IMG/VR virus record: IMGVR_UViG_3300048797_000130
Span: 1-38,795 of that record
Source of the DNA: a virus
Direction: 5' to 3' (one strand)
Length of the DNA stretch: 38,795 nt
This document shows positions 2,909 through 38,767 of the stretch, piece after piece. The notes under the pieces were generated by a model. That model did no database searches. It was not told the DNA's origin and saw nothing but the letters and a program-made list of their open reading frames with translations. The stretch's first letter is position 1; the number at the start of each line of letters is the position of its first letter. The position numbers and the translations under genes were made by a program.

Positions 2909-4924
2909 TTAGTTGGTTGGTGGTACCCCGATTCGTGCATTAACGGCATCGAGCAGCCGCTTCTGTTTTGCTACCTGTGCGCCCGTAGAAACCGCGAGTG
3001 CCTGCTTTACTTGGTCGCTCATCGGAGTCCCGGCCCTGAAATTGGAGATTTCCGCGTCCTGGAAAGGCTGATTTCCTAGCCGCTGGGCGAGCATCGACTG
3101 ACCCTGCGGCGTTTGCACGAGGTCGGGACCGCGAACCAGTTTCCTGACCCCCTGGTAGATGAGACCGCGAGCGGAGACGGGGATTCGGGACATATTAGAA
3201 ACGCCCGAGGATTGCATCGTCTGCCCGCGCTTCTGGGCCAGTATCTGCTCGAGACTGTTATTTTCGGCTGGCCCTCCCATCATCATCTGCCGTAACTGAG
3301 CGCCTGATTGCGTTGGTTCCAACGCTGAACCGCCCAAGGCCGAACTCGCACCCTTGTCAACCGTCTGACCTTGAATCTGGCCCGCAGTAAAGGCTTTCAT
3401 GCCCTGCCTGAACGCTTCAGCGCGTCTCGCCATTGCCTGCGGTGGCTCGTTCGGATAGCGCGGCGTCTCAATCGACTTGAGCATCGCTTCCGGTGAGTTC
3501 TCAGGTAGCGTGGCACCGGACACCCCGTTCGCATGCTTTATCGCATCATAGCCGTTGGCGAACGCTTCTTCCTGTCCCTTGGCATCCGAGTAAAAAGCAT
3601 CTGCTTTCGCCCAGTCCGGCGAGGTTCCGTGCAGGGTGTTCCGAATGGCGTTGACCTTGGGTATTAACTGGAGCGCATCCTGCTGGCCGATATAGGTATC
3701 GGGCTTACCCTGTGCGACACTCCACAGGTGCTGCTTCAAGCTGGAAAGCGCCTCGGGGTCAGGCATTGAGACACCTTGCGCCTTGGGTCCCATCAACTCA
3801 GCCGGCAGAATATCCGCGCCTTGTATCGTCGGCACTCTCGTGGCCGAGGAGTTCTTGACCGCGTTGGCTAAGACGGGGTTTGTCGGTGCCGCTGCGCGCG
3901 TGCCTACCTTTGCCGCATCAGCACCTTTGAGGAACCTCCCGACCCCGCCGCCTTTTGAAGTGCCGGGGTTCATGGCGTTATCCCATGCCTCCTGCGTGAT
4001 CCCTAGCTTCTGGGCGGCAAGCGGGACGGTAGACGGAGCCGCGGAAATCGGGAGCGGGTTGCCTTTGGCGGCCCTCACATCAGACACGTACTGAAATCCC
4101 TTCTGTACCTGCGGATCAGAAAGGAGGGTGTTCAACTGAGGATCATCGAGTATCTGCTTATCGGCTCGGGCCTTGTTGTAAAAAGTAGCCGCTTGCGCTT
4201 TCGTGTTCGCGATTCGGGTGAGTTGCTGCTGCGCCGCTGTCTGGTTCGGAGCGCCCACGGCGTCTAAGATGTCCTGACGGTTAGAGAGAGCATCATTGAC
4301 CTGCCCTCTCGTTCCCATCGTTGCCGCGAACTCGGGCGAGATTTTGTTGACTTGGCTTTGAAGCAAATCAGTCAGGCCGGTGCGCGCTGAGATATTGGCC
4401 ACGCCCTTCCCAGCGAATTGACCGCCCTTGGCGAGGAGTGCCGATAACACGGCACTCGTGCCCGTGTTCTTCGCTCTGTCGGCTAGGCTGCTCGCTGGTT
4501 GATCGGCGCCTTGGAGAGCTCCGAAGGTCGCGCCGCCTTTCACGATTCCCATCGGACTCAATGCAGCCCCGGCGGGAGCGCCGCCCGCGATCTGGAGTGG
4601 GAGCCTCGCCTGCCAAGGCATTGAAGCGATGTCCTTTTTCTGCCCCGACATCGCGTTGTTCACTTCATCCGAGGCCGCATCGATCCCTTCGCCCGAGAGA
4701 AGCGAGACGAGACCCCGGTATCCAGCGACCGCGCGCGTGGCACCGGGGAAGCCCGAGACCAGTGTCTCCGCGATCTTCTGCGCCATTGGTGGCTGGTCGG
4801 CCTGCTTCCCATATTTCGCGTTGTAGGCCGTGACCGGATCGGGGCCGGATGCAGGCGTCCTCCCGCCGTATTTGGCGTTGTACGCGGTAATCGGATCCGG
4901 TTCTGGCGGTACCGAGACTCCCAT
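2909..4924 (-). CDS. Large internal virion / DNA-ejection protein candidate
   Basis: A 671-residue Ala/Gly/Gln-rich protein. The N-terminus carries two copies of DPxTAYNAKYG (about residues 9-19 and 29-39), followed by a weakly amphipathic region with Gly/Ala segments (IAGGAPAGAALSPMGIVKGG) and long helical stretches. No enzymatic motif is seen. In podoviruses such large helical proteins after the tail genes are ejected with the DNA. It is the last of four consecutive low-complexity virion-type genes before the lysis region. Role is inferred from position, size and composition. Start ATG lies one base after the upstream stop. Confidence 0.6.
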   Translation of the reverse strand: MGVSVPPEPDPITAYNAKYGGRTPASGPDPVTAYNAKYGKQADQPPMAQKIAETLVSGFPGATRAVAGYRGLVSLLSGEGIDAASDEVNNAMSGQKKDIASMPWQARLPLQIAGGAPAGAALSPMGIVKGGATFGALQGADQPASSLADRAKNTGTSAVLSALLAKGGQFAGKGVANISARTGLTDLLQSQVNKISPEFAATMGTRGQVNDALSNRQDILDAVGAPNQTAAQQQLTRIANTKAQAATFYNKARADKQILDDPQLNTLLSDPQVQKGFQYVSDVRAAKGNPLPISAAPSTVPLAAQKLGITQEAWDNAMNPGTSKGGGVGRFLKGADAAKVGTRAAAPTNPVLANAVKNSSATRVPTIQGADILPAELMGPKAQGVSMPDPEALSSLKQHLWSVAQGKPDTYIGQQDALQLIPKVNAIRNTLHGTSPDWAKADAFYSDAKGQEEAFANGYDAIKHANGVSGATLPENSPEAMLKSIETPRYPNEPPQAMARRAEAFRQGMKAFTAGQIQGQTVDKGASSALGGSALEPTQSGAQLRQMMMGGPAENNSLEQILAQKRGQTMQSSGVSNMSRIPVSARGLIYQGVRKLVRGPDLVQTPQGQSMLAQRLGNQPFQDAEISNFRAGTPMSDQVKQALAVSTGAQVAKQKRLLDAVNARIGVPPTN

Positions 4925-9302: not shown

Positions 9303-10283
9303 TCATTTCCATATAGGTATCCAGAAAGGGATGCTAGAATTGTCAAGCATCCTTAGCCATGTGTTCTGGGTTGCCGTCGCGGGACCCGTAGCGCCGATAG
9401 TTCCCAGAGTCGCCCCAGCGCCTCCGCCCAGAGCAATGGGCGCGACGCCGTAGGAGACATCCTTCCCGTCAGGGGAGAGAAGAACTCGGTCAAATCCGCC
9501 GCCGGTGGAACCGATCAGACTAATGCTATTCGTCCCCGCAGCGTTTGTGGCTCTCAGCGTACCGGTCTGGATGGGCAGTGTTATTGACCCGGCTGCCGCT
9601 GCCGCTCCCGGGACCCCGCCTCTTGTACTGACTAGTCCGGCATCAGTAATAATCAGGTTGTTATTCGCGTTCGCATTGTCACGGATTGCGAGGCTGGAAC
9701 TGCCGGGGACGATCTGGGAGACTGCCGTAGCTAAGCTCAGAGCATATCCGCTGGCGACCGTAACGCGGGTATTGGTGTTATCCAGCCGGAGTAGTTCGAG
9801 GCCGCCCGCACCCAACACGAGCACGTTGCTGCCGGTCGTGGCCCAGAAGTGGGGGACGCTGGCATAGCCCAAGGCCACCGTATAGTTCGTAGCGTCGGTC
9901 CAGTCCTGCGAGACAGCGCCAGCGGCGCCCCCAGAGACGTGAGTTATCCCCGCGATTGTGGACGTGCCGGTGACTTGAATCCCGCCCGCATTGACTGTGA
10001 CCGCGCCACCTGTTGTCAGCGTCGATACGCCGGTAATCGTCCCGGCAAGGACAAGACTCGTGGCCGTGAGAGTCGTTATCCCGGACAGCGTGCCCGTTAT
10101 GGTCGAGTTCCCAACCGCTGTCAGTGCACCGATGTTCAAAGGATCGGCAGCAGCGAAAGCGAATAGCGCTTTCCTGAAGTTCCCGGCCGTTATCCCCGAA
10201 GACGCTCCCCCGATGTCGCCAGCCAGAATATCAGCCGTCGCGAGAGTCGTTACGCGAGGGGCATTGGTAAAAGTTTTACTCAT
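9303..10283 (-). CDS. Tail fibre / structural protein with beta-repeat region
   Basis: A 326-residue protein. Residues about 50-120 are a Thr/Gly/Ser-rich series of short repeats (GTLSGITTLTATSLVLAGTI and similar) typical of phage fibre shafts. A globular part follows with DWTDATNYTVALGYASVPHF and LRLDNTNTRVTVA, then a C-terminal segment ending IPFWIPIWK. The N-terminus (DILAGDIGGASSGITAGNFRKAL) resembles the virion-binding ends of short fibres. The ATG overlaps the previous stop by ATGA. Its 3' end converges within six bases of the lipoprotein gene. Function as a fibre is inferred. Confidence 0.6.
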   Translation of the reverse strand: MSKTFTNAPRVTTLATADILAGDIGGASSGITAGNFRKALFAFAAADPLNIGALTAVGNSTITGTLSGITTLTATSLVLAGTITGVSTLTTGGAVTVNAGGIQVTGTSTIAGITHVSGGAAGAVSQDWTDATNYTVALGYASVPHFWATTGSNVLVLGAGGLELLRLDNTNTRVTVASGYALSLATAVSQIVPGSSSLAIRDNANANNNLIITDAGLVSTRGGVPGAAAAAGSITLPIQTGTLRATNAAGTNSISLIGSTGGGFDRVLLSPDGKDVSYGVAPIALGGGAGATLGTIGATGPATATQNTWLRMLDNSSIPFWIPIWK

Positions 10284-11992
10284 GCGTCAACCACATCCGC
10301 TGTTGATTCAACGCAATCGAGTTGAAAGCGGTCCAGTCTCCATTGGCTCGTAGCGGTCGTTGGGATAAGCGTGCACTCGAACCCCCGTCCCAGTGCGTCG
10401 AGCCCCCACGCGAGCCGGTTCGTGCCATCGAGCGAGGCTGAAGGAGTAGCGGTCGCGGGAACAGCGTCGGCCGTCATCCACGCCTCACCGCCTAAGGTCA
10501 CCCACGGCTCTGCGTTAATCAAAACCCACGGATCGGACTCGAAGCTGACGACCGACATCGAAGGTGTTAAGATCTGGATCTGGACCGGTGAGGTGTTGCC
10601 AGTGATCGCCCGTGCTTGGTCGGCGTTCCACATAGTGTCGGCCGAGTAGGCCAATCTCTGCGTCTGGGCCGAGACGTTGGGAACACTGAGCCCCGAGTCG
10701 AGCCAGTTGTTCTCCTGCGGATTAGCAAGTCTCCAGACGTAGCCCCCGAAGCCGTTATTGATCGCCGCGACCTGAGTACCGATCACGACGAGTTCTGATT
10801 CGCCGTTCTGATCCTTCAAGGTGCCCATCGCTTCGATATTGACGCCGGGCCCCAGTATCCACCGCCCGACATAAACCCCCGTCTTCACATCGAACGCGTA
10901 GGCGGTGTTCGGTGACAAGTTGATCGTGGGTGACGGGCTCGTAGTCGCTACGACCCAGAGATTGAGCGAGTCCACGGAGATGATCGCACTGCAGGCCGTT
11001 ACTGCTGTCGCGCTCGGGACATCGGTTCGCGAGGTCTCGACGATGGTCCGCATCTGCTTCCAGATGTCTTGCAGTGGGTTCCCAATGCGCCACATCTGGG
11101 GACGGCCCTCGGTATCGGCAAAAAGGATCGTGTTCCCCACTTGTGCGATCGATGCGGGACTCCGCGTCCCGATCTTGAAGTCAACAGCATCGTGGGTAGC
11201 CGAGTTCTTGAAGTCGGGGCCGATGGGACCTGTTAGTGCACCAATCGAATCCTCGCGGAAGTAGAAGAGGGCGATATTCGTCGGCCAGATTGCATATATC
11301 GGAGTCGAACCGGTCTGTGTCAGAATCCAGGTGTAGTCAACCGCCGTAGTTCCGACGACGTTGAAATAGCCGCTCGTCGGATCGTTCGGGGCCGACCATG
11401 CGATCGTGGACTGGAGGAAGACGCCGGCGACGGTTTTCAATACGAACACGAGAGCGCCCGAGTACTCGCCCATGTGCTGCGCGGACCAGAGGGAGTTCCC
11501 GACATCATACTGGATCTGCGTTCCCGTAATCGGAGTGCTCCCGAGATTGGTGCCGAACCACGGCCTGTTCACGCCATCGGAGACTATGAGCTTGTCGGCA
11601 AACGAGAGCATGAAGACGCGGGTCCCCAAGCCCCCGTCGATCGTAATTCCCGCTGGAGTGACATCGGTGTTCACGGTCTCGTCAGCGCTCGAGCGATAGA
11701 GTTTTCCCGATACGCACTTGAAGTTGTACTCCGTGCCGTCTGCCGCTGTGTGGTGGAAGACGCCCTGTCCCTGATGGTTCGCTCCCCCCAGCTGATTGGA
11801 CGGATTCATCAGAACCGCAGCGGGGCGGGCGTAAGCTCCCGAGCCACGGTCAGGGTCCGGCACGAACATATTCACCGCATCTTGCAAATAACTCAGACCG
11901 TCCTTTGCATCGTCCATGGGATCAGCGGTACTCAGCACCCCGGACCACGGCCCAGTTACCACCGTCTGCCGGCGCATCTTCGCGCTAGCCAT
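10280..11992 (-). CDS. Head-completion / tail hub protein candidate, beta-propeller-like
   Basis: The 570-residue protein begins MASAKMRRQTVVTGPWSGVL and has repeated beta-rich blades with VFML, LIVSDG, LYRSSADE and WRLANPQ-type strands, reminiscent of the P22 gp10-like DNA-stabilisation or tail-hub proteins of podoviruses. I chose the ATG at 11992 because GGAGG lies five bases upstream; an upstream TTG would add four residues. It precedes the fibre and spike genes in transcription order, as a tail hub would. Assignment is by composition and place; no signature motif is certain. Confidence 0.55.
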   Translation of the reverse strand: MASAKMRRQTVVTGPWSGVLSTADPMDDAKDGLSYLQDAVNMFVPDPDRGSGAYARPAAVLMNPSNQLGGANHQGQGVFHHTAADGTEYNFKCVSGKLYRSSADETVNTDVTPAGITIDGGLGTRVFMLSFADKLIVSDGVNRPWFGTNLGSTPITGTQIQYDVGNSLWSAQHMGEYSGALVFVLKTVAGVFLQSTIAWSAPNDPTSGYFNVVGTTAVDYTWILTQTGSTPIYAIWPTNIALFYFREDSIGALTGPIGPDFKNSATHDAVDFKIGTRSPASIAQVGNTILFADTEGRPQMWRIGNPLQDIWKQMRTIVETSRTDVPSATAVTACSAIISVDSLNLWVVATTSPSPTINLSPNTAYAFDVKTGVYVGRWILGPGVNIEAMGTLKDQNGESELVVIGTQVAAINNGFGGYVWRLANPQENNWLDSGLSVPNVSAQTQRLAYSADTMWNADQARAITGNTSPVQIQILTPSMSVVSFESDPWVLINAEPWVTLGGEAWMTADAVPATATPSASLDGTNRLAWGLDALGRGFECTLIPTTATSQWRLDRFQLDCVESTADVVDA

Positions 11993-22070: not shown

Positions 22071-23354
22071 TCACGGCCCCCAGGGCGTGCCAGGCGCGCC
22101 GGTTCCGGTAACAGCGACGCCGTTCACCTTCTTTATTTCTGACGCGATCGGCGTTACACCTGCGGCTGTCAGGACGGCTGCGGCGTTCGTGGCTGCGGTC
22201 GGGATGTCGGATACTGCAGAGGGTGAGGCTGGCAGATTGTCAGTCTTGGCTTTGATCGCTCCAACATCCGAGGCGGTCAATCCCGTGACGGAGCCAACTG
22301 CCCCGGTTACAGACGCTACGGCGCCTCCCGCATAAGTGCTTCGCGAGGAGATCGTGGCGTCCAGATTACTTGCCGCGAGACCGACCACAGAACCCACCGC
22401 TCCCGTAACTGAGGCGGGCGTGGAAGCGTTGAGGCTGGTCTTCATTGCCGCCGTGAAGTCGCCTGAGAGTGACGCAACTGGTGTGGCCGCATTGAGAGAG
22501 GTTTTCATGGTAGCCGAGAAGTCACCGCTCACGGTTGCTACCGGAGTAGCGGCGTTCAGGCTCGTCTTCATCGCCGCAGTGAAATCACCCGCTGCCGGCG
22601 CGTTTGTGAGATTTGTAGCCGTTGTGATTGTGCCCGCCGTGATGTTTGTGGTTGACGCTGGGGCGGCTGGGAGGTTGTCGGTCTTCGCCTTGATGGCGGC
22701 GTTATCCCCCGTCCCGCCGGACTTGATCACGGCGAACGCATCTCCGGTCTGGGGCGTGTTCCCGGTGTAGCCGTTGATCGTCAAGCCGGTCCCCAAGGCC
22801 ACGCCGTTCATCACGCTCTTGCCGACGCTCCCAGCCACGGTGAAATCCCCGGCGGTCGCGTCCTGCCAATGAGCGGTTGCGATCGCCGCTGCAGTCAGTT
22901 GGTTCGTCACGGTCGTGACCGTCGTTACCGGAATTGCGTCGTCAACGACGGTCGACTGCGCGATGCACTCAAGCGTGATGAGTGTGGCTTTCGCGCCGAC
23001 AGAATCAGCCGTCTTGCAGGCTATCCGGGTCGAGATCGCCACGGGGATCGGTGGGAAGATAGGTCGGTATCCGGTTGCGATCGTGGTGCCGGTGGAAAGC
23101 GCAACGAGATATTGACCGACAATCACTTCAGAGGCTGCTGCACCCGTCGCCAGTTGCACAACGTCGTAAGTCCCACCCAAAGCTGTAGCGGACTCGACAA
23201 AGAAGCCGGTGATGTAAAGGGCCGCTGCGGTCGAGGCGATCAGCTGGACGTAGGTGGTTGTGAAGACGTTGGCCGCCCCAGACGTGCAGGAGGTGCCCGC
23301 TGCTGGTGCGGTCGGTATCGCGAAGTGGCCGGGGTTCGCGATCTTGACGCTCAC
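22071..23354 (-). CDS. Decoration-like repeat protein
   Basis: A 427-residue protein starting with GTG in a GTGA overlap. Residues 1-140 are a beta-rich domain, with FTTTYVQLIASTAAALYITG and KATLITLECIAQS. Then come three tandem 21-residue units GDF[TS]A[AT]MKTSLNA at residues 256, 277 and 298, two VTGAVGSV units near 316 and 349, and two AIKAKTDNLPA units near 220 and 366. Such shaft-like repeats occur in phage head fibres and decoration proteins. It directly follows the portal gene. Function is inferred. Confidence 0.6.
   Translation of the reverse strand: MSVKIANPGHFAIPTAPAAGTSCTSGAANVFTTTYVQLIASTAAALYITGFFVESATALGGTYDVVQLATGAAASEVIVGQYLVALSTGTTIATGYRPIFPPIPVAISTRIACKTADSVGAKATLITLECIAQSTVVDDAIPVTTVTTVTNQLTAAAIATAHWQDATAGDFTVAGSVGKSVMNGVALGTGLTINGYTGNTPQTGDAFAVIKSGGTGDNAAIKAKTDNLPAAPASTTNITAGTITTATNLTNAPAAGDFTAAMKTSLNAATPVATVSGDFSATMKTSLNAATPVASLSGDFTAAMKTSLNASTPASVTGAVGSVVGLAASNLDATISSRSTYAGGAVASVTGAVGSVTGLTASDVGAIKAKTDNLPASPSAVSDIPTAATNAAAVLTAAGVTPIASEIKKVNGVAVTGTGAPGTPWGP
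22403..22589 (-). repeat. Three 63-bp tandem coding repeats
   Basis: Within the decoration-like gene, three nearly identical 63-base units encode the 21-residue GDF..MKTSLNA.TPVA element. The DNA copies differ at many third positions, so they are old or under protein-level selection. Confidence 0.7.
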
Positions 23355-25711
23355 GCTGCCTCGTCGGGTGTCGATTCAGCCACCATCGATCCGTCCGGGT
23401 TTTTCTTGATGACCGTCGTTTTCTTGCCCGCTATGTGGATATGGATGTCGCCCTTCACTTCCTTGGGCGCGCCTTCGGTTACAGCCGGAGCGGGCATATT
23501 CGCCCTCTGGTGCTCCGCGGTCTGTAGCGATAGCCCATGCTTATGGGTTTCGAGCTCCAGGGCTCGCTGATGGGCGGTGGCGCCTTCTTGTTGCTTCGAC
23601 TGGTCCTGAAGGCTTTGCGCGTGACTGGCCGCTTGGTTCTGGGCCGCAACTGCTTGCTGTTGCTGATACCGAGTCAGAGCCTCCTGATATTGCTGCATCG
23701 CGAGTTGATACTGTTGCTGCGCCTGCTGATAGCCCCGATACTGCTGGATCCACTCGGGACTCGGCACACCTTTGAGGAAGGCCGTTATCTGACGCTCGAT
23801 CCGCTGCTCATGGGCCGAGGCCGGGAGGCCCAACTGCCTCGAATAGGCGGGTCTGGCCGCTTCCGCGCCCTCGTCCTTGGACAGCATCCCCGACTGCATG
23901 AGCCCGGCAAGGTTCTGGATCTTCTGCTCGGGCGAGGTCACGGTCCCCGTACCCGTCTTTACCGTCATCTTCCCGACCAGAGCGAAGTCAACAGCCGTCA
24001 CGTCTTCTTGCTTAAAGATCCCGTCGTCACCGACGTAGTTCACCTGCTGAGCGGTCGTGAACTTACTCATCGCCTGCTCGACCTTGATGCGGTTCCACCG
24101 GCAGTAGGCGTTATTGACCGCGTTGTTCATCCCGCCCAAAGAGACGTTGTTGTTGGACGACGCCAATCTGATCGCAACCCCGGACCGCTCTTTGGCGTTG
24201 TCCTGACCTGTGGCCGCTCTTTCAGAGGCACTGATAGAGTTGATCGCCTCATCACTCAACTCATAGAGCCTGAAGAAGTTGGCCTCAAACGTGACGGGCT
24301 CTCCCCACTTGGGCATATCCTCAGGCCGGACCAGAGGAATGAGATCCCCGGTCGCTCTCGCGTCTTCGCGTTGCTGGCCACTGACTGGACTCGTCGACGA
24401 ACTGTAGCCCTCGATGTGGAGGTTCTTGTCGATTACTTCAGCGGCGCTAAGCGCCAGATGCGCGTTACTCTCGACCGCGCCGGCGAAGAGCTCGATATAA
24501 GCCCGGCCTCTCGGGTTCTGCTCGTCCGGGTCGCCTCTGGGCGTGATCTGAACGACGGGGATCTCCATGCACCGCGTTTCCTTGGTGCTCGTACCCTGCT
24601 CGCCGGTCGGCTGGCCTTGGTCGCTCGTACCGTCAGATGGCACCTCGACCTCGGCTGACAAGAATTGCTTGTCAAGGATCCGGCCCTGAAAAGCGCCCGT
24701 TACTACTACATCGGCGCCCTTTTTATAGTCCGGGCAGGCTTTGACGAACGGGTGGTAGTAGAACATGATCCGCTCGTCTGAACTACCTTGCTTTGCCTTG
24801 TCACGGCCATCGGTCAGCTTCCAGCGGGCTCGGAGGTAGAAGGGGAGGAGCGCGGGATAGCGGGGAGGGGTCCAGTCGGTCAGCTTGGTCAACTCGCCGT
24901 CAGCCATATCGGCCACATCGGGCCATCTGCGTTTCGCTTCCGAGAGCGTGCAGTAGCCCAGGATTATCACCTTCTCGGCCTCAGCTACCGACTTTGATTC
25001 CGGGAAGATGCGGATGTGCTCGTTTTGCCACTTCTGAGCCATGAGCTTGGGCTGCCACTGCGGGGCAGCTTTGGTCGCGTCCTCTGTAAATTGGCTCTGG
25101 GCCGTGGGTTGGCCGTCTGGCCCTACACTCGTCACGTACCGCATAATCGGAGAAACAGTCGGGCTTCCGTCTGCTCCGACCATTGGCTGCATCGGGGACT
25201 GAGCCTTGGGGTGTGCCGGGATCTGGAGCGGGATATACCCACCGCCCGTTGGATCCGTCCAGCACTCGAGGAAGCTCGACGCACAGGTCAGACTCCGGGC
25301 TACCCGGTCGTTCCAGAGTACGATGTCGTTCGTGCCCTGCTCGGATGCGTTCTGCGTCAGGAAGCGCGTGATGTACTCGGCCGCTGCTGATGCTCTTTCG
25401 CCATCATCACCCGGCTCAGCTTCGATCTGCGGGAAGTCCACAAGCAAGGCTTCGGTCGTCTTGTTGATTACGTCCCACGCTTTGTTGGGAACCGCTTGGA
25501 TCGTGACACCTGAAGAGCCGTAGGGAAGGGACTGCTCGTAACGGTCGATACCCGGCTTTTTCGTGAGTGTTGACCACGGATAACCGAGTTTTACATACGT
25601 CCAGTGCGTGTCTTGCGCGAGTTGGTTTAAGGCGGGAACTTCAGTTCGCAAGATCATCGCATGCACGGAGTCGAAGACGGCCTTGTCGTCGTCCTCGAGC
25701 CACGGCCCCAT
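23351..25711 (-). CDS. Portal protein
   Basis: A 786-residue protein from ATG 25711, the size of P22/podovirus portals. It starts MGPWLEDDDKAVFDSVHAMI. The body includes SGVTIQAVPNKAWDVINKTT, a membrane-like clip region around AGAVESNAHLALSAAEV, and SNNNVSLGGMNNAVNNAY, followed by a Gln-rich C-terminal helix (about residues 660-735, YQQAQQQYQLAMQQYQEALT). It is downstream of terminase and upstream of scaffold and capsid, as portals usually are. The frame stays open for another 68 codons upstream with no ATG, GTG, TTG or CTG; see the mini-ORF entry and finding for a possible ATA start at 25915. Confidence 0.75.
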   Translation of the reverse strand: MGPWLEDDDKAVFDSVHAMILRTEVPALNQLAQDTHWTYVKLGYPWSTLTKKPGIDRYEQSLPYGSSGVTIQAVPNKAWDVINKTTEALLVDFPQIEAEPGDDGERASAAAEYITRFLTQNASEQGTNDIVLWNDRVARSLTCASSFLECWTDPTGGGYIPLQIPAHPKAQSPMQPMVGADGSPTVSPIMRYVTSVGPDGQPTAQSQFTEDATKAAPQWQPKLMAQKWQNEHIRIFPESKSVAEAEKVIILGYCTLSEAKRRWPDVADMADGELTKLTDWTPPRYPALLPFYLRARWKLTDGRDKAKQGSSDERIMFYYHPFVKACPDYKKGADVVVTGAFQGRILDKQFLSAEVEVPSDGTSDQGQPTGEQGTSTKETRCMEIPVVQITPRGDPDEQNPRGRAYIELFAGAVESNAHLALSAAEVIDKNLHIEGYSSSTSPVSGQQREDARATGDLIPLVRPEDMPKWGEPVTFEANFFRLYELSDEAINSISASERAATGQDNAKERSGVAIRLASSNNNVSLGGMNNAVNNAYCRWNRIKVEQAMSKFTTAQQVNYVGDDGIFKQEDVTAVDFALVGKMTVKTGTGTVTSPEQKIQNLAGLMQSGMLSKDEGAEAARPAYSRQLGLPASAHEQRIERQITAFLKGVPSPEWIQQYRGYQQAQQQYQLAMQQYQEALTRYQQQQAVAAQNQAASHAQSLQDQSKQQEGATAHQRALELETHKHGLSLQTAEHQRANMPAPAVTEGAPKEVKGDIHIHIAGKKTTVIKKNPDGSMVAESTPDEAA

Positions 25712-27068: not shown

Positions 27069-27294
27069 AGACTCCTCTGGGAGGGCTGGTTTTCCGTCTG
27101 CCCCGGCTACGAAACCAGCAAAGCTTACCGGCCTGCGTCGAAAGCGGGGGCGACTTACCGAGCACTGTGTGCTCAATCCGGACCACGCCTAACTCCGCGT
27201 CTGGCAATCTGGCGCCGATGTTCCGGCCGATACTTACGCCTGTCGGACTACGTGGCGCGCCCCCTAGTGGAATTCTGAATCCGTATTGTTTCAT
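27058..27294 (-). CDS. 78-aa protein after terminase
   Basis: A 78-residue basic protein with a start that overlaps the terminase stop as ATGA. It begins MKQYGFRIPLGGAPRSPTGV, has an Arg/Lys-rich C-terminal part and ends RGVYAS. Its tail overlaps the next gene by 11 bases. No motif is recognised; composition is plausible but not strong, so the ATGA overlap carries most of the weight. Confidence 0.45.
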   Translation of the reverse strand: MKQYGFRIPLGGAPRSPTGVSIGRNIGARLPDAELGVVRIEHTVLGKSPPLSTQAGKLCWFRSRGRRKTSPPRGVYAS

Positions 27295-28865
27295 CCTCGC
27301 CTCACCGGCACCCTGTACTTTCCGGCCGTTGGCGACTGCGGCAGACCAATCAGCCGTTGCAGTGCTTCCTCTCCCGTCACGCGCTTCCGCTGCTGCTTCT
27401 TGTCGTAATCGTAGCCCATCGCTTTTCCTTCCTCGTCTTGCCGGACAGGTGCCAGCGACAAGAGCGGACGCGCCATCAGGCCGTACCGCGTCTCGTCGTA
27501 ATAGTCATCTCCTCCCCGACCTGCTGCATCGGCATCGACCTTCAAAGCGTCTTCAGGGTTCGCAGGATCAAGCGACATCCTCTTCATCTGCGCGAGGCAG
27601 GCTTTGTTGCCGGGCGTGTCCATCCAGAGGAACCGCGGGCGAACGTCTGGACGGGCGATATACGTGTATTGCCGGATGTTGTTGAGCCCGGCTACCCGTG
27701 CATCGGCCGCCGGTATCAAGCGCCAGCCAAGGTTAAGCAACTGCTCTGCAACGGTCGGACCGGTGAACTCGCCCTTGATCTTCCCCTTGCTCGAGACACG
27801 GGTACGCCACGCGTCGGGCGAACCATGAATGACCAGCTTATGAGGATCGATGCCGGCCTGCCGTACTTTGGCATCGATCTGCTCCGGCAGGTCCAGCCGA
27901 CCGATAAGCGACTCCCGTTTATAGACTTGCCCGTCCTCATCGATCGTGTAGTGACCTACTGTCCACGGGTGGTGATAACCCCAGTCGAACGCGAGCCACG
28001 CGTGCCAATGAGCCGGAGGCGAGAACGCTTCAACCATGTGCGTTGCTTCAGATAACCCCGGGAGCGCGAGACCGACACCGGTTTCAAGGAGCTCGGCGTA
28101 GACTTCCTGTTTCAGCTTAGGTGAGTCCGGCGGGTACTCGTCGATCAGTTCCTGAATCGCTTTGGGCGAGAGCGTGGGGTTGTCGAACGCCGTGCCGGTG
28201 AACTCGACCCATTCTGCTGAGCGGGTGCCGGCCTCGATCTCTTTACAGAGGATGTTGAAGTAGCTGGGGACCTGGGGTGCCCCGGTGTCGTCGTAGCCCC
28301 CGTCCGGCCCGGCATTGGTCGTGCTCATGATGATCAACCAGCCGTTATTATCGGTCAACGCCAACAGTATGACGTCTTGAAGCGCTCCACGAAGGTCGAG
28401 CCACGCCGCCTCATCGATGATCACACCGAACAGCCGCTTACCAATCCCGCGGATTGAATCGATTGCCTCTCGATCGCCCGACCGGAGCATGAGCGCACCA
28501 ACACCCGGGATCTCGACATCGTGGCGCTGCGCGTTCAGGTTGATCCAGTCCGTCAAGTGCCCCATCCGTGGCACGATCTCCTCGCGCCAGAGTACCGTCG
28601 TCAGATTCGGGTAGTTCTGGGCAATCCAGACAACGTCCCCACCCTGCAGCACGCCACGCATCGCGGGTTCGCCATCTTCCCATCCGGGCCCATGCCCGAG
28701 CAGGGCCGCAATGAACGCGAATCGCGTCTTCATCCCGCGCCGGCCGACCCGAAAGAGCTTCCGCGAGGCGGGTGAGTCGAGCCATTCGACCTGCTTCCCC
28801 ATCGGCTCAGGCAGGATTAGCTCACCGTCTGCCACCCTCATTTCTCGCTCGACCTGGGCACTCAT
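27291..28865 (-). CDS. terL: Terminase large subunit
   Basis: A 524-residue packaging ATPase/nuclease. Walker A is GRRGMKT (residues 41-47), Walker B is GVIIDEAAW (about 147-155, with D151 and E152), and the coupling motif STTN lies at 181-184. The C-terminal nuclease shows FDWG (D294), HGSPDAW (about 347-353) and GGDDYYDE (about 451-458), whose acidic residues would bind metal. It docks on the portal, cuts concatemers and drives DNA into the prohead. Start ATG overlaps the upstream stop by ATGA. Length is typical. This is the most certain identification in the window. Confidence 0.93.
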   Translation of the reverse strand: MSAQVEREMRVADGELILPEPMGKQVEWLDSPASRKLFRVGRRGMKTRFAFIAALLGHGPGWEDGEPAMRGVLQGGDVVWIAQNYPNLTTVLWREEIVPRMGHLTDWINLNAQRHDVEIPGVGALMLRSGDREAIDSIRGIGKRLFGVIIDEAAWLDLRGALQDVILLALTDNNGWLIIMSTTNAGPDGGYDDTGAPQVPSYFNILCKEIEAGTRSAEWVEFTGTAFDNPTLSPKAIQELIDEYPPDSPKLKQEVYAELLETGVGLALPGLSEATHMVEAFSPPAHWHAWLAFDWGYHHPWTVGHYTIDEDGQVYKRESLIGRLDLPEQIDAKVRQAGIDPHKLVIHGSPDAWRTRVSSKGKIKGEFTGPTVAEQLLNLGWRLIPAADARVAGLNNIRQYTYIARPDVRPRFLWMDTPGNKACLAQMKRMSLDPANPEDALKVDADAAGRGGDDYYDETRYGLMARPLLSLAPVRQDEEGKAMGYDYDKKQQRKRVTGEEALQRLIGLPQSPTAGKYRVPVRRG

Positions 28866-30007: not shown

Positions 30008-30053
30008 TTTTAGGGGTGGACCAAGAAGGGTCAACAGCAAGAACCACTGACGC
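30008..30053. repeat. Dispersed repeat copy A (46 bp)
   Basis: 46 bases identical to copy B at 32004-32049, direct orientation. Read on the minus strand it has TTGACC-N16-TAAAAC immediately before the 144-residue gene. Two related copies of 30-34 bases in the opposite orientation lie at 30838 and 33149. Confidence 0.9.
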
Positions 30054-30669: not shown

Positions 30670-30932
30670 TTCGCCCGTATGTAGAGTTTTAGAACGAACG
30701 TGCTCTTAGCGCAGTCGTAAAACCATTCGTAATCCTCCGGCGCTCCTCCTTCGTACCCCTTCACAAAGTAGGACACGAGGTCCGCTGCCTTTATTGTGTC
30801 ATGCTGGATTTTTAGCTCAGGGCGTTTTGCTTTTGAACTTGCTGTTGACCCTTCTCGGTCTATCCCTAAAAGAACTTCTGCAGCATCCAGTCTGTCGTCA
30901 GCGGGTGGGTTAGACACCGGAAGTTCCCCCAT
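30666..30932 (-). CDS. 88-aa protein containing repeat copy D
   Basis: An 88-residue protein, MGELPVSNPPADDRLDAAEV, then the peptide LGIDREGSTASSKAKRPELK (encoded by repeat copy D), and a C-terminal part DLVSYFVKGYEGGAPEDYEW ending LKLYIRAK. The start is not certain: a GTG at 30917, preceded by GGGGGA, would give 83 residues and fits a ribosome site better. Function is unknown. Downstream it is coupled to the 31-residue membrane peptide. Confidence 0.5.
   Translation of the reverse strand: MGELPVSNPPADDRLDAAEVLLGIDREGSTASSKAKRPELKIQHDTIKAADLVSYFVKGYEGGAPEDYEWFYDCAKSTFVLKLYIRAK
30838..30871. repeat. Dispersed repeat copy D (34 bp, inverted)
   Basis: Same core as copies A-C with three base differences, in the opposite orientation to A. 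It lies inside the coding part of the 88-residue gene and encodes GIDREGSTASS. Confidence 0.8.
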
Positions 30933-31988: not shown

Positions 31989-32008
31989 TAAAAGCAGGAG
32001 TGCTTTTA
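31989..32008. promoter_or_regulatory. Inverted repeat TAAAAGCA-GGAG-TGCTTTTA
   Basis: A perfect 8-bp inverted repeat with a four-base loop abuts repeat copy B on its downstream (minus-strand) side and precedes the 68-residue gene. It is AT-rich, so more likely an operator than a terminator. Confidence 0.45.
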
Positions 32009-32049
32009 GGGGTGGACCAAGAAGGGTCAACAGCAAGAACCACTGACGC
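32004..32049. repeat. Dispersed repeat copy B (46 bp)
   Basis: Identical to copy A over 46 bases. On the minus strand it contains TTGACC-N16-TAAAAG upstream of the 68-residue gene. It lies in the gene-free gap 31963-32063. Confidence 0.9.
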
Positions 32050-32391: not shown

Positions 32392-33240
32392 TTACTGTGG
32401 TTTATCAGCGATGCGCGTAAGTTTGTCGGCGAGGTTGAGCCAAGTATCCCATTCGGGAGTTTCGCGCGATTGGCGTGCTTCGTTTCGAGCGAGAACGACG
32501 AGACTTTTTGCCTCCGCTGGCGTTAGCGATGAGGACTCAAGGTCGGCGATTTTCAAGGCCTGAATTAGTGACGGTAGGCTCGATCTTGCGCGCAACGCCC
32601 CGTTCTCAGATCGCAGATGGCTCACCTCTTCCGTAACCAGTTCGGCGATGTTCTCACCACCTAATCCGAGTTTGTATTTCTGGCAGCAGTCATGCAGAAT
32701 GCCGCACATCTCGCCGTACAATTTTCCGCGCGCCCCGATTTCTGCCTGCTGCTTCTCGAAGAGCGCCTCTACTGCCAGACGAGCGGCGTTCACCGCTTTC
32801 TGCGCGTACTCCATCTGATACGTCTCGGCGGTGCTTTTAGCCCAAGCGTCGGACACATCCTGAAACTCACCTACGGCCTCGCACAGTTCATCCAGCACGG
32901 CCCGTAAGTCGGATGGCGTCGGTGGTGCGGTGTAGCGACTGATAGCCGCCTGCTCCGATTGCGTGGTGCCGTAAACGGTATGGTCGCCAACGTCGGGAAT
33001 AGCACTCCGCTTTCCTTCGATGTCGTAGCCAAGTATTCGGGGAGATGTGTCGTTGACACGCTGCCGCCCGCAGTCCTTACACGGATGGTCAAGCGGGGGA
33101 AGCATTCCACAGGTGGCGCACCATGGCCGGGGTGCATCCGCCCTTGAACTTGCTGTTGACCCTTCTTGGTCCACCCCTGATTCTTCTGCGTCGCTCATTT
33201 TTCTGGATTCCTTGTTGGGGAAGACGTGGGAGACAGTCAT
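32392..33240 (-). CDS. 282-aa protein with zinc knuckle and repeat copy C
   Basis: A 282-residue protein starting in an ATGA overlap; an internal ATG (residue 15) is a possible alternative. The N-terminus has ESGVDQEGSTASSRADA (from repeat copy C), then CATCGMLPPLDHPCKDCGRQ, two CxxC pairs of a zinc ribbon at about residues 41-58. The remainder is long helices (about 110-270), with HLRSENGALRARSSLPSLIQ and SSLTPAEAKSLVVLARNEAR. Function is unknown. The zinc ribbon may contact DNA or another protein. Confidence 0.55.
   Translation of the reverse strand: MTVSHVFPNKESRKMSDAEESGVDQEGSTASSRADAPRPWCATCGMLPPLDHPCKDCGRQRVNDTSPRILGYDIEGKRSAIPDVGDHTVYGTTQSEQAAISRYTAPPTPSDLRAVLDELCEAVGEFQDVSDAWAKSTAETYQMEYAQKAVNAARLAVEALFEKQQAEIGARGKLYGEMCGILHDCCQKYKLGLGGENIAELVTEEVSHLRSENGALRARSSLPSLIQALKIADLESSSLTPAEAKSLVVLARNEARQSRETPEWDTWLNLADKLTRIADKPQ
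33149..33178. repeat. Dispersed repeat copy C (30 bp identical, inverted)
   Basis: 30 bases identical to part of copies A and B, in the opposite orientation, located in the N-terminal coding part of the 282-residue gene. The shared core extends to TTGAACTTGCTG, which is also present next to copy D. Confidence 0.85.
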
Positions 33241-33948: not shown

Positions 33949-34208
33949 TCCGCTACCTCGTAGGTCATGGCGAAGATGTCTGGCTTGCACGGATAGTGTT
34001 CGCCCTTAACGCCCGTGATTATGAAATCGCCCTCGCTGACAGTGAGGCGACCCTCAAGCGTCATAATCCAGTACACGCCATCAAGCGGGTCAGGCGTGAA
34101 ATCACCCTCAGCTTTTGGCACGCCATAGTTCACATGAGCATGAGTGCTCGCATCATCGGCATGGAACTGGACTGCATCAATTACGACTGGCTTCTTTCTG
34201 AATTTCAT
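33945..34208 (-). CDS. PGDYG-family phage protein
   Basis: An 87-residue protein. MKFRKKPVVIDAVQFHADDA and SEGDFIITGVKGEHYPCKPD with FAMTYE are the hallmark segments of the PGDYG phage family, widespread in tailed phages and prophages. Its biochemical function is not established. The start is in an ATGA overlap. Length is typical. Confidence 0.85.
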   Translation of the reverse strand: MKFRKKPVVIDAVQFHADDASTHAHVNYGVPKAEGDFTPDPLDGVYWIMTLEGRLTVSEGDFIITGVKGEHYPCKPDIFAMTYEVAE

Positions 34209-34486
34209 CGTGTCCTCGAATTGGTTCCTAGAAGTTTTCTATCGCAGCGAGCGCACAAAGCGGGGAAGGCAGTAGCTTTACCGATCTCAACGCAGGACTC
34301 GAGGAATGAGGCCCGTTGGCCGTCCGTGAGTGAGGCTAGATACTCGGGGCTCACGAGGAACTGTGAGTATTCAGCACCGCAGCGGCATTTGGCATTTGGG
34401 TTCTCCCGCGGCTTAGACCGACGCGATTCATCGGCATCATCACGCGGGTACTCGAGGAGAAAGGGAATCCGGGGGACGGCTATCAT
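34205..34486 (-). CDS. 93-aa Cys-rich protein
   Basis: A 93-residue protein from ATG 34486, chosen since it overlaps the upstream stop as ATGA; an ATG nine codons earlier is not overlapped. It has CRCGAEYSQFLVSPEYLASL and a C-terminal CARCDRKLLG, which suggest a split CxC/CxxC zinc site. Function is unknown; located just downstream of the HTH replication-type gene. Confidence 0.55.
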   Translation of the reverse strand: MIAVPRIPFLLEYPRDDADESRRSKPRENPNAKCRCGAEYSQFLVSPEYLASLTDGQRASFLESCVEIGKATAFPALCARCDRKLLGTNSRTR

Positions 34487-35190
34487 GCCTGTAGCCCCTC
34501 TAACACGGCCCACAACGCTTGCTTGACCTGCTCCGGCTTGCGTGGCTTCTCCTTACCTGGAGGTCTGTATCCGTGTACGCCGGCAAGCGGGTTCGGGAGA
34601 TCGCCCTTCACGGACGCGAGGAGCGGGATCTCTGTTTGCCCGTCCAGCCGCCACGCCTTAAGTAACCCCTGTTCCCAGAAGGCCAGCGAGATCGGCAGCT
34701 TTCCCTTACCGTGCTTTTCGGGATGGAAACGCATGATATGGCGCCGAAGCATCATGAGCGCGAACCCGAGCTCGACGCCGGCGGCTTGGAGATTCTGCCC
34801 CGTCCGAACGCTCGAGCGGTTGTCGTGCTGGACGCGTTTGAAGTCGTCCCCAAAGCGTTCGAAGCAACCCGAGTTCATGGCGTTTATCAAATCACTTGTG
34901 TAACCGCCTCCAGACTCTAGAGGCAGTTTATCTAGTGTAGTTCTATCTAGAGGGACAGCCTTAACCGATACACGGTGTATCGGATTAGCCTTAACCGATA
35001 CGGGCTTAACCGACTCGCTGTATCGGTTAAGCGCATCAGCATGAGAGTCTACAAAGGCGAGAAATCGCTGTACTTTCGCGGCTGTCCAGCCCCATCGCTT
35101 TGCGAGATGGCGGGTAGAAGCGCGACCGTTCTTCCGGAGATCCTCGAGCGCAAGGGTGCGCTCCGCTGACCACCTGAATCGCTGGCTCAT
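34483..35190 (-). CDS. HTH protein with internal iterons, replication-initiator candidate
   Basis: A 235-residue protein. The N-terminus (MSQRFRWSAERTLALEDLRK, then RASTRHLAKRWGWTAAKVQR) is a winged-helix/HTH-type DNA-binding region, followed by a repetitive low-complexity linker (SESVKPVSVKANPIHRVSVK) and a C-terminal helical domain (ELGFALMMLRRHIMRFHPEK). The linker is encoded by the iteron-like cluster. The arrangement (DNA-binding N-terminus, origin repeats within the gene, helicase-loader-like C-terminus) parallels lambda O. This is inference from architecture; no signature confirms it. Confidence 0.6.
   Translation of the reverse strand: MSQRFRWSAERTLALEDLRKNGRASTRHLAKRWGWTAAKVQRFLAFVDSHADALNRYSESVKPVSVKANPIHRVSVKAVPLDRTTLDKLPLESGGGYTSDLINAMNSGCFERFGDDFKRVQHDNRSSVRTGQNLQAAGVELGFALMMLRRHIMRFHPEKHGKGKLPISLAFWEQGLLKAWRLDGQTEIPLLASVKGDLPNPLAGVHGYRPPGKEKPRKPEQVKQALWAVLEGLQA
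34900..35035. repeat. Iteron-like repeat cluster, candidate replication origin
   Basis: CTTAACCGATAC occurs at 34960-34971 and 34990-35001, with a partial copy at 35005-35013 and inverted copies at 35020-35031 and (partial) 34977-34983. The first copy forms a 19-base near-palindrome with the partial inverted one (34965-34983). AT-richer DNA with two TATCTAG and CTCTAGAG elements flanks the cluster (34913-34950). It lies inside the HTH gene. Confidence 0.6.
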
Positions 35191-35528
35191 GCGGTGCGCC
35201 TCTGGTCAGCGGGCAGCACCCAAACTGAGTGCCGATTCCCGTGGCTGGCGTCGATCGTGGAGCGACGGGTACGCTCGGTTGCGATTAGCCCAGCCATCCG
35301 GCAAAGCGCGCCCAGAAACGAGAGCTCACGGCCTTTAGCCTCCGCAGCCAGGAGCCCCCGTTGTACCGCGGTAAGTCTGACGTCCGAAATAGTGACGCCT
35401 GAGTCTCCAGCTTTCAGCGCGAGAGTCCTCACAATCGGGATTAACAACGCGATTCTGTGACTGTGCTTGGATGCCGATTGCGTGCTCCAAAGCTGGATCT
35501 GATCGGGTGAGGGTTCGCGGGTTCTCAT
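35187..35528 (-). CDS. 113-aa protein of unknown function
   Basis: A 113-residue basic protein: MRTREPSPDQIQLWSTQSAS, then HSHRIALLIPIVRTLALKAG, SDVRLTAVQRGLLAAEAKGR and a C-terminal HSVWVLPADQRRTA. It might be a small HTH or wHTH domain (SDVRLTAVQRG could be a recognition-type helix), but I cannot confirm. It overlaps neighbours by ATGA on both sides. Confidence 0.5.
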   Translation of the reverse strand: MRTREPSPDQIQLWSTQSASKHSHRIALLIPIVRTLALKAGDSGVTISDVRLTAVQRGLLAAEAKGRELSFLGALCRMAGLIATERTRRSTIDASHGNRHSVWVLPADQRRTA

Positions 35529-36115
35529 GCGGCGTCATCCTCGCGCTGTTCCTCTACCGTGCGGTCGGTGGTGAGGATCTGCGCTTCAATGAGGCGTTCA
35601 GCATCCTCAAACGGGATCATCGCACGCCATTTCTCGAAAGCACGGGCCACAGAACCGCTTCCCGGAAACAGATCGGTGAACTCGTCCTCTGCGCGGATGC
35701 CGAGAACGGCGAATATCCAGAAGCAGAACCCATCGGGCTTCGCGCCTCGCAGCCCTTTCTGGATCGCCATGTTCTCGCTGAGATAATCGCGAATCGTCAT
35801 TGCGTAACGCGGGCGTTTCCGACAACCGCGAACCAGAACGGGCTCCCAGCAATAGCCGGGGTTGACGCCGGGCTTGAAAGAAACGAGCGGCTTCACCCAC
35901 GCCATGACGCGCGTATCTGGAGGGCAGAGCGGCAGGATGTGCTTGAGAGCTGTCGATTGAAGTGACATCGCCCACCCGTCAAACTCAGAGCACAGACGAT
36001 CCACCAGAGCCGCGTGAGGCTCGATCTTGTCGTATTCAGCAGCCTCGGGATGCAGCTTGCCGTAGAACTTCTCAGCCAAGCCAAAATAGGGCGGATCAGC
36101 GTATGCGAATTTCAT
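35525..36115 (-). CDS. DNA methyltransferase (DPPY)
   Basis: A 196-residue protein. DPPYFG at residues 7-12 is the catalytic motif IV of N6-adenine or N4-cytosine DNA methyltransferases, and FTDLFPGSGSVARAFEKW near residue 150 is the AdoMet-binding motif I. With motif IV before motif I the order is permuted (beta-like). It lacks a clear separate target-recognition domain, so the sequence specificity is probably short or supplied by the middle segment. Probably a phage anti-restriction enzyme. Start ATG is in an ATGA overlap. Confidence 0.8.
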   Translation of the reverse strand: MKFAYADPPYFGLAEKFYGKLHPEAAEYDKIEPHAALVDRLCSEFDGWAMSLQSTALKHILPLCPPDTRVMAWVKPLVSFKPGVNPGYCWEPVLVRGCRKRPRYAMTIRDYLSENMAIQKGLRGAKPDGFCFWIFAVLGIRAEDEFTDLFPGSGSVARAFEKWRAMIPFEDAERLIEAQILTTDRTVEEQREDDAA

Positions 36116-36521: not shown

Positions 36522-36743
36522 TGTTGCGAAGTAGGTTGCGGACTGGCCCTCAGTTGTTGTACTTGGCTGGACTCTGTTGCGTGAATTCTTACTATAGGAA
36601 GGGGGTTTGCCCGCACCTATCCCGTTGCAACTGAGAGACTTAAAATCCCTTCCCATAGGTGGGGTGAGAGTTCGATCCTCTCCCCGAGCATTGTATAGAC
36701 TTAGGCGCATGGAGTTAAACCATTTTCTAGGCGTGATGTTGCG
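36522..36743. repeat. TGTTGCG heptamers around the attP core
   Basis: TGTTGCG occurs at 36522-36528, 36575-36581 and 36737-36743, plus a fourth at 36874-36880 in the integrase gene, all on the plus strand. Candidate integrase arm-type sites. No other feature is seen in the gene-free stretch 36472-36775 apart from the core. Confidence 0.35.
36636..36690. other. attP core: 3' half of a tRNA-Leu(TAA) gene
   Basis: Plus strand reads as the anticodon loop CTTAAAA (36639-36645), anticodon 3' stem TCCCT, variable arm CCCATAGGTGGG, T arm GAGAG/CTCTC with loop TTCGATC (36666-36682), acceptor strand CCCGAGC and discriminator A (36690). The matching 5' half is absent upstream. The anticodon 5' stem AGAGA has a mismatch with TCCCT, marking where the host-identical core should begin. 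No functional tRNA is encoded. It lies 86 bases before the integrase. Confidence 0.75.
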
Positions 36744-36775: not shown

Positions 36776-37867
36776 ATGCCGCACCGACCGAAGGGCTCTC
36801 TTTGGTGGAAGACCAGGATCACGCTGGCCGATGGAACAACGGGCATCTTTGCGTGCGGCACAACTAGCGAGGATGTTGCGAAGGATGTGGAGCGCATGGT
36901 CAAAACTTTCGAGCATGACCGCGTATGGGCTCCGCTCACACTCGTCGTCCTGAAGAAAGCGAAACTCGGGGACGTTTACGATTCCATGAAAGCCGGCGCA
37001 CTCGGCGCGTTTCTCTCCGCTCGTGAAAGCGTCGATCTGGCTCCGCTCGTCTCCGAGTGGCCGGCTGGACTCAAGTACAAGACTCAGGTGCGGTGCTTGA
37101 TTCCCGAAGACTCCGTTTTTCCGGCTACCGCGTTCACGAAGAAGAAGGTCAGTGAGTTCCTGGCTGGACTTACCTGCTCGGGATCCACGAAGAATCGCTA
37201 CCGCGCTGCGCTCTCCGTCTTCGCTAAATGGCTCCTCGAGCGCGACATCATTCCGCACAACATCGTCCGTGATGTCGGGAGCTTTAAGCCGAATCCCGCC
37301 AGGCCGGTCTGGCTTGACCGTGTGCAGGCGAAAGCTCTTATCAATGCCTTGCCGATGCCGTACCGAGCGATCGAGGCTCTCATGGCTGCCACGGGCGTGG
37401 AGTGGCAGGTCGTAGAAAGACTTACCCGGCGAGATGTAGACCTTCATTCAAGGACCCTCCACGCGAGAGGAGGGAAAACACCGTGGAGAAACAGAGTCGT
37501 TCGCGGGACTGAGCTCTGGGCGTGGAGGATCTTCGCCGATTACGCCAAGCAGTTCACCGACAATGCGCAGGTCTTCAGCGTGAGCAAGTTCAGAGCGCTC
37601 GAAGTCCATCTCGAGGCCGCGGAAGTCCTGAACTTGCCGCGCACTACGCTTCACGATTGGCGGCACACCTATGCGGTGGGTGCTCTGCGTGACGGGTACA
37701 GCATTCAGGTGGTGGCGCACCAACTCGGCCATCGCGATACTGTTCTCGTCCAGAGTCGCTACGGTCGGTTCGTGCCAGAAGCATCGGATTACAGACATTT
37801 CAGGAAGCCTCTTTCCAGTCGAGCGCGCCCTTCGCAGAAGGGACGTTTAAGATCTCGTAGCGCCTGA
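36776..37867 (+). CDS. int: Tyrosine integrase with non-canonical Arg I position
   Basis: A 363-residue site-specific recombinase. A core-binding SAM-like part spans about residues 115-170. The catalytic domain shows ATGVEWQVVERLTRRDVDL (205-223), GGKT (K234), HDWR (H293, R296), QLGHRD (H319) and SRYG with nucleophile Y329. The residue normally occupied by the first catalytic Arg (TGxR) is Glu209. The N-terminal part (about 1-100) is divergent and probably binds arm sites. It is adjacent to the attP core and overlaps the excisionase 3' end by 68 bases in convergent orientation. Start: ATG 36776; no closer upstream start is in frame. Confidence 0.9.
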   Translation: MPHRPKGSLWWKTRITLADGTTGIFACGTTSEDVAKDVERMVKTFEHDRVWAPLTLVVLKKAKLGDVYDSMKAGALGAFLSARESVDLAPLVSEWPAGLKYKTQVRCLIPEDSVFPATAFTKKKVSEFLAGLTCSGSTKNRYRAALSVFAKWLLERDIIPHNIVRDVGSFKPNPARPVWLDRVQAKALINALPMPYRAIEALMAATGVEWQVVERLTRRDVDLHSRTLHARGGKTPWRNRVVRGTELWAWRIFADYAKQFTDNAQVFSVSKFRALEVHLEAAEVLNLPRTTLHDWRHTYAVGALRDGYSIQVVAHQLGHRDTVLVQSRYGRFVPEASDYRHFRKPLSSRARPSQKGRLRSRSA

Positions 37868-37991
37868 CGAGAGCCGGATGGTAGCGTCGCTGCCGACCGA
37901 TCCTCGTGTAGTGGATGGGTAACTCTCTCGCCGTGTTGAGCGAGACGCCGAGGTGTTGAGCGAGCTCCTTCAGGTTGAGCAGTTTTTCCAT
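37800..37991 (-). CDS. Excisionase-like HTH protein
   Basis: A 63-residue protein: MEKLLNLKELAQHLGVSLNT and ARELPIHYTRIGRQRRYHPA, then VRRYEILNV. This is a MerR/AlpA-type winged HTH as in many phage Xis proteins, which bend attachment DNA and direct excision. It starts three bases after the upstream stop, without its own clear ribosome site, and converges on the integrase gene. Alternative: a general regulator. Confidence 0.7.
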   Translation of the reverse strand: MEKLLNLKELAQHLGVSLNTARELPIHYTRIGRQRRYHPALVRRYEILNVPSAKGALDWKEAS

Positions 37992-37993
37992 GA

Positions 37994-38767
37994 TTAGAAA
38001 GGCAGGTCGTCGTCGGTCTCTTCGAGCGCGCGCGGGAAATCCTCAAACATTGTTGCTCCTGAGCCGACTGAGCGAGCGGCCAGCACTTCCTTGAGCGCTC
38101 CGATCAGACTCTCGAACTTCTTCGCATCGGTCTTCCGGCACCACGCGATTGCTGCCTCCAATTCCTCGTCGTGCAGGTCGCCCAACCGCTTACCTTTGGT
38201 ATTCCCGAAAGGCATGAGCTTGTCGGCTGCTGCCTTGGGAGGCGCCGCGGGGCTCTTGTCCATTTCCTCCGCTGACACTTCGCCCATCGCTATCAAGCGG
38301 GAGATGGCCCGGTTGTGCGCCCTCGTCTCGGCTGTGGCTATCGCGTCGGCGATCGTGATAGTACGCCGTCCCGACTCCTCGTCCGTGGCGCACGCTCCTA
38401 CGCCTTCCGCCGACTGCCCCCAGGGAGCAATCGCTTTCACGGTAACGGTAGCGCAGAACGTCTCGCCCAGCATTTCCTTCTGAGCCGAGACTACGACGGT
38501 CGAGATATTGAAGTGCCGCCCGAGTTTCGCCCATGCTGACTTCTTCTTAAAGGTGCGCCCGCCTTCCTTCTGGACGTCGTTCTCACCGATGAGCGAATTG
38601 CAGGCAGCGTCGTAAGCCGCGGCGAGTTTCTTCTGAGCTTCGAGAGAGGCCGGTGTCGTGACTGACGCCAGATACTCGACCATTGAGAAGGTCTGAACTT
38701 CGCCAACTACTTCTCCGGTTCCCGCTGCTACGAGATCCCGGCCCGATTTCACCAGTGCTGCTGTCAC
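37994..38767 (-). CDS. Single-strand annealing protein (Rad52/ERF-like) with SSB-like tip
   Basis: A 257-residue protein from GTG 38767, with AAGGAG seven bases upstream. The region FKKKSAWAKLGRHFNISTVV and the segment SAEGVGACATDEE...RAHNRAISRLIAMGEVSAEE belong to a phage/archaeal Rad52-like annealing family. Residues about 185-235 (LMPFGNTKGKRLGDL) resemble the small PFG.KG.. module found after exonuclease or annealing domains. The protein ends EETDDDLPF, like the acidic tip of bacterial SSB. Recombination role is inferred from family; it is next to xis and integrase. Confidence 0.7.
   Translation of the reverse strand: MTAALVKSGRDLVAAGTGEVVGEVQTFSMVEYLASVTTPASLEAQKKLAAAYDAACNSLIGENDVQKEGGRTFKKKSAWAKLGRHFNISTVVVSAQKEMLGETFCATVTVKAIAPWGQSAEGVGACATDEESGRRTITIADAIATAETRAHNRAISRLIAMGEVSAEEMDKSPAAPPKAAADKLMPFGNTKGKRLGDLHDEELEAAIAWCRKTDAKKFESLIGALKEVLAARSVGSGATMFEDFPRALEETDDDLPF

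Follow-up and report, generated by a model that had tools for sequence, protein, structure and literature searches.

A cluster of 12-bp iterons inside the gene of a predicted HTH protein as the probable replication origin of an IMG/VR phage

In phage lambda, the O protein binds iterons that lie midway along the gene encoding it, and an adjoining AT-rich tract is needed for unwinding (PMC7466680; PMC6022878). In ori-lambda, and likewise in the O genes of Stx phages, the iterons follow the DNA-binding domain and the AT-rich tract lies downstream of them (PMC7466680); the lambda record is annotated with four iterons in O. A repeat region is also annotated inside ORF49 of Lactococcus phage BK5-T, a replication initiation protein, with very AT-rich DNA downstream. 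Here we analyzed a whole IMG/VR virus contig of 38.8 kb (the window; 41% AT overall), in which a gene encoding a 235-aa protein, P0001, is arranged in the same way. The features of the locus are as follows.

34205..34486, minus strand: 93-aa gene with paired cysteines, downstream of P0001; its start overlaps the P0001 stop by 4 bp (ATGA)
34483..35190, minus strand: ORF of P0001, 235-aa HTH protein, proposed replication initiator
34881..34957: AT-rich low-stability tract, proposed unwinding element, adjoining the iterons downstream within the gene
34960..34971, plus strand: iteron s1, exact CTTAACCGATAC
34965..34983: perfect 19-bp odd palindrome between s1 and s2
34977..34988, minus strand: iteron s2, CTAATCCGATAC, two mismatches, forming a dyad with s1
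34990..35001, plus strand: iteron s3, exact
35005..35016, plus strand: iteron s4, CTTAACCGACTC, two mismatches, forming a dyad with s5
35020..35031, minus strand: iteron s5, exact
35187..35528, minus strand: 113-aa gene upstream of P0001, with a 4-bp overlap
35525..36115, minus strand: methyltransferase-like gene, with a 4-bp overlap with the 113-aa gene

The original prediction described a motif repeated at least four times, both directly and inverted, with a 19-base near-palindrome. We found five 12-bp sites with the consensus CTTAACCGATAC at 34960-35031, in the order + - + + - (three on the plus strand and two on the minus strand). Both orientations are thus present as predicted, but only three sites are exact 12-mers, the other two being degenerate; in s4, the first 9 bases are exact and form the 9-mer CTTAACCGA. 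The element of 19 bp, CCGATACAC-G-GTGTATCGG, proved to be a perfect odd palindrome rather than an approximate one, and it sits within a 35-bp dyad (82%). As single-stranded DNA, the region folds far better than shuffled sequences (z -5.7), as expected from its dyads. No other 9-mer of the contig reaches four occurrences within 120 bp. Of the k-mer and skew analysis that had been suggested as a check, the first part singled out the cluster; GC skew was too weak for placing an origin.

The sites correspond to codons 54-77 of P0001 and directly follow its predicted HTH, in agreement with the placement of the repeats inside the gene for an HTH-type protein. The protein consists of an HTH (residues 9-50), a linker encoded by the sites (53-78), a segment encoded by the AT-rich tract (79-104), and a C-terminal region for which no relatives are known. 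In an AlphaFold model computed from the single sequence, the N-terminal HTH was predicted with a mean pLDDT of 79-89 over residues 11-50, and the C-terminal region had a pLDDT of <50. The repetitive linker units of the VSVKAnP type noticed earlier are SVKP, VSVKANP, and VSVKAVP. P0001 matched an AsnC-type HTH weakly (E 0.011), and Foldseek returned no significant match with its model. Searches of IMG/VR, GTDB genomes, INPHARED phages, plasmids, and PDB sequences yielded no homologue, nor was one present in 38 records reached via the neighboring genes. The single PDB match, a histone, was not significant.

The predicted AT-richer flanks are real mainly on one side, at 34881-34957, where stretches reach 56-62% AT. 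The 40 bp from 34912 belong to the least stable 0.02% of the 40-bp windows of the contig, and the tract ranks third among distinct 80-bp windows for instability (top 0.02-0.1% of windows). It lies on the gene-downstream side of the sites, as in most of the initiators used for calibration below. The tract contains three TCTAG boxes, at 34917, 34931, and 34946, about 15 bp apart. At its far edge, a second dyad, CCGCCTCCAGACTCTAGAGGCAG (34905-34929), gives a strong hairpin fold.

As P0001 was without a homologue, we asked instead whether initiator genes can be told by a repeat cluster within them. We used 11 phage loci whose initiator is annotated or was assigned by homology. In seven of these (lambda, RedFox, Sansa, BK5-T, PFR1, MooMoo, and Mendokysei), the top short-repeat cluster was wholly contained in the initiator gene, against about 0.8 expected from an initiator share of 6-8% of each locus; the loci were picked for containing an initiator, which makes this rate biased as a predictive value. 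The PfAn1 locus was left out, its initiator coordinates being guessed and the stretch containing stops. In the window, the repeat score was 31 inside P0001, and the runner-up anywhere in the 38.8 kb scored 8. The initiators of Catfish and Azospirillum Cd had no strong cluster, and TinaLin had a stronger cluster in its SSB gene; all three count against the rule, which is thus neither complete nor exclusive. A repeat scan of 84 phage loci, blind to protein identity, returned two clusters in HTH genes, those of L007 (P0002) and L036 (P0003), amid many low-complexity arrays. Both proteins match PHROGs replication-initiation families, L007 weakly (E 4e-4), and both were left out of the count of seven in 11, having been picked by the scan itself.

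The same order of HTH, repeat-encoded linker, and C-terminal domain was found in P0002, P0003, and the initiator of L114, three IMG/VR phages whose proteins match PHROGs replication initiation families and whose clusters lie at 25-52% of the gene. Their repeats are unrelated and their proteins are not related to P0001; L114 has only the 9-bp core CTTAACCGA in common with the window. The exact palindromic iteron pattern had no match in IMG/VR, and a relaxed core pattern matched 30 loci, about the chance level, with L114 among them. In L114, the linker of the replication-initiation gene (10194-10874) is encoded by copies of CTTAACCGACGACGG spaced by 15 bp. Separately, about eleven near copies of CTTAACCGA lie at 2081-2260 of L124, next to the gene for a DNA primase/helicase, and may be a noncoding origin of that other virus.

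In lambda, as here, no short-repeat cluster of the locus is stronger than that of the iterons. The two systems differ in several respects: P0001 has no sequence similarity to its lambda counterpart, its N-terminal domain (∼50 aa) is shorter than that of O, and no P-like loader was recognized next to its gene. Furthermore, the lambda iterons are 18 bp long and each is itself a dyad, whereas the sites in the window are 12 bp long and of mixed orientation. BK5-T ORF49 differs as well, with direct repeats of another sequence, a Gram-positive host, and no sequence similarity found.

L090, the closest relative by virion genes that includes an early region, has a TerL 73% identical to that of the window and homologous terminase, portal, and 113-aa genes, the last being 45% identical and located in the early region. 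The order of genes in both the window and L090 places P0001 in the early region, with recombination genes on one side and packaging genes on the other. The corresponding early region of L090 holds a recognized initiator (2926-3795; phrog_1408, E 3e-24). About five GAGTCCT units in tandem encode its linker, and no tandem array in that 21.5-kb locus scores higher. This initiator is not homologous to P0001, which suggests a module swap, and its repeat is different, with all units in one orientation. We infer that an unrelated protein took over the place of the initiator and that the layout persisted. The methyltransferase-like gene has many viral relatives, one of which adjoins the initiator gene in L007. 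In L026 (6790-6868) and L027 (6090-6272), four copies each of TGAGTCACA, spaced by 30, 30, and 10 in L026, lie just upstream of a methyltransferase-like gene and outside long ORFs; these arrays are possible origins or operators.

Together, these observations make it probable that the gene at 34483-35190 encodes a phage replication initiator and that the embedded cluster is an origin working as in lambda. This was the original proposal, and it is the best supported one, given the unique cluster, the unstable tract, the HTH prediction, the signs of constraint on the DNA described below, the calibration, the early region of L090, and the layout of HTH, iterons, AT-rich tract, and C-terminal region that recurs in recognized initiators. 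By analogy with lambda, we infer binding by P0001, melting of the tract, helicase recruitment, and origin activity. The N-terminal HTH would bind the five 12-bp sites, with s1/s2 and s4/s5 arranged as dyads, and the bound array would stress the adjoining tract, which would open. The C-terminal region may then recruit the host replicative helicase, directly or via a loader, and host enzymes would carry out the remaining steps of replication.

Some results count against a lambda-O-like initiator. P0001 matched none of the initiator or replisome-organizer families in PHROGs, Pfam, and NCBIfam, and no loader or helicase gene was recognized. Profile comparison with two initiator alignments was likewise not significant, and none of the initiators compared gave a significant alignment to any part of P0001. 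The remark that a polymerase or helicase is not obvious was borne out among the proteins scanned, in which no helicase, primase, or polymerase was recognized. The genes neighboring P0001 matched no loader family, and a divergent loader may still be among them.

An operator array, at which the HTH protein or a phage repressor would control transcription by roadblock or autoregulation, is an unlikely alternative to an origin. Palindromic sites of mixed orientation for an HTH protein do resemble operators, and the fold of P0001 weakly resembles Lrp/AsnC regulators. However, the gene is coupled to its neighbors by 4-bp overlaps and the sites are located 160-231 bp into its coding sequence, no promoter-like sequence was found nearby on the strand of the P0001 gene, and the consensus is absent from the other regulatory spots of the contig. 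An operator would also leave the adjoining unstable tract unexplained.

It is highly improbable that the repeats are a mere by-product of a repetitive protein linker built of SVK/VSVK units, the DNA itself having no role. Three direct copies do share a reading frame, and the peptides that they encode are similar (VSVK, SVK). The inverted copies, however, encode LNRY and ANPIH, so that the feature shared by all copies is the DNA. When the P0001 gene was recoded synonymously with the codon usage of the phage itself, at least five sites appeared in 0.02% of 5,000 trials, and no trial produced three exact 12-mers. Over residues 53-104, encoded by the sites and the AT-rich tract, codon usage was poorer and GC3 lower than in any equal window of 11 other genes, and the codon-usage minimum of the P0001 gene was the lowest among 19 early genes. 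The inverted copies, the odd spacing, and the poor codon usage suggest that the constraint acts on the DNA and not on the peptide of the linker.

A cis-acting site of another kind, for packaging, recombination, or partition, is improbable in the extreme. Such sites can be repeat clusters, and the contig carries both an integrase and a terminase among its recognized genes.

23351-25711: portal gene
27291-28865: terminase gene
36776-37867, plus strand: tyrosine integrase gene
37800-37991, minus strand: excisionase-like 63-aa gene, judged by eye
37994-38767, minus strand: ERF/SSAP-like gene, judged by eye

Yet the integrase gene is ∼1.7 kb away from the cluster and the terminase genes are >5 kb away, the consensus is absent near both, and no partition gene was recognized among the contig proteins scanned. 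Chance clustering is less probable still: the contig has many single 12-mers with up to three mismatches (23, versus 17.7 expected), but a comparable cluster, or a 12-mer occurring three times, arose in none of 40 dinucleotide shuffles.

By its gene content, which also includes endonuclease-type genes, the phage looks temperate. No host was found via a prophage in a TerL profile search of GTDB genomes, and the TerL relatives L084, L085, and L086/L088 end before the initiator region. RNA families of Rfam are absent from the contig. Next to the integrase gene, a stretch at about 36635-36695 resembles by eye the 3' half of a tRNA, with a T-arm-like GAGAGTTCGATCCTCTC; it was not reported by ARAGORN or Rfam, and it is a candidate attP. 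The early region also contains a dispersed repeat of ∼35 bp with the core AGGGGTGGACCAAGAAGGGTCA, in four copies of both orientations where none is expected by chance:

30012-30033: first copy of the dispersed repeat
30846-30867: second copy
32008-32029: third copy
33157-33178: fourth copy

Two relatives carry two copies each (L085 at 3322 and 3778; L088 at 617 and 1051). Some copies lie in gene starts and others are intergenic, and the repeat may be either a small mobile element or an operator in dispersed copies.

In terms of sequence, P0001 is new to all the libraries searched here, and its architecture is already known. We therefore file it as a protein that would work like lambda O, of the known kind in which an initiator gene embeds its origin, but in no known initiator sequence family. 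Somewhat short of an even chance, in our estimate, is the bolder view that P0001 is the first member of an initiator family that has no kinship with the known ones in sequence, nor perhaps in C-terminal fold, and that reached the embedded-origin layout independently, with 12-bp iterons of mixed orientation.

In a group of phages whose replication genes are almost entirely unannotated, the locus provides a concrete candidate for both the origin and the initiator. The results also favor a rule of thumb: where the strongest short-repeat cluster of a temperate phage genome lies in an HTH gene, that gene is often the initiator, even when the protein is unrecognizable. This rule could help to assign initiators and origins across metagenomic phages.
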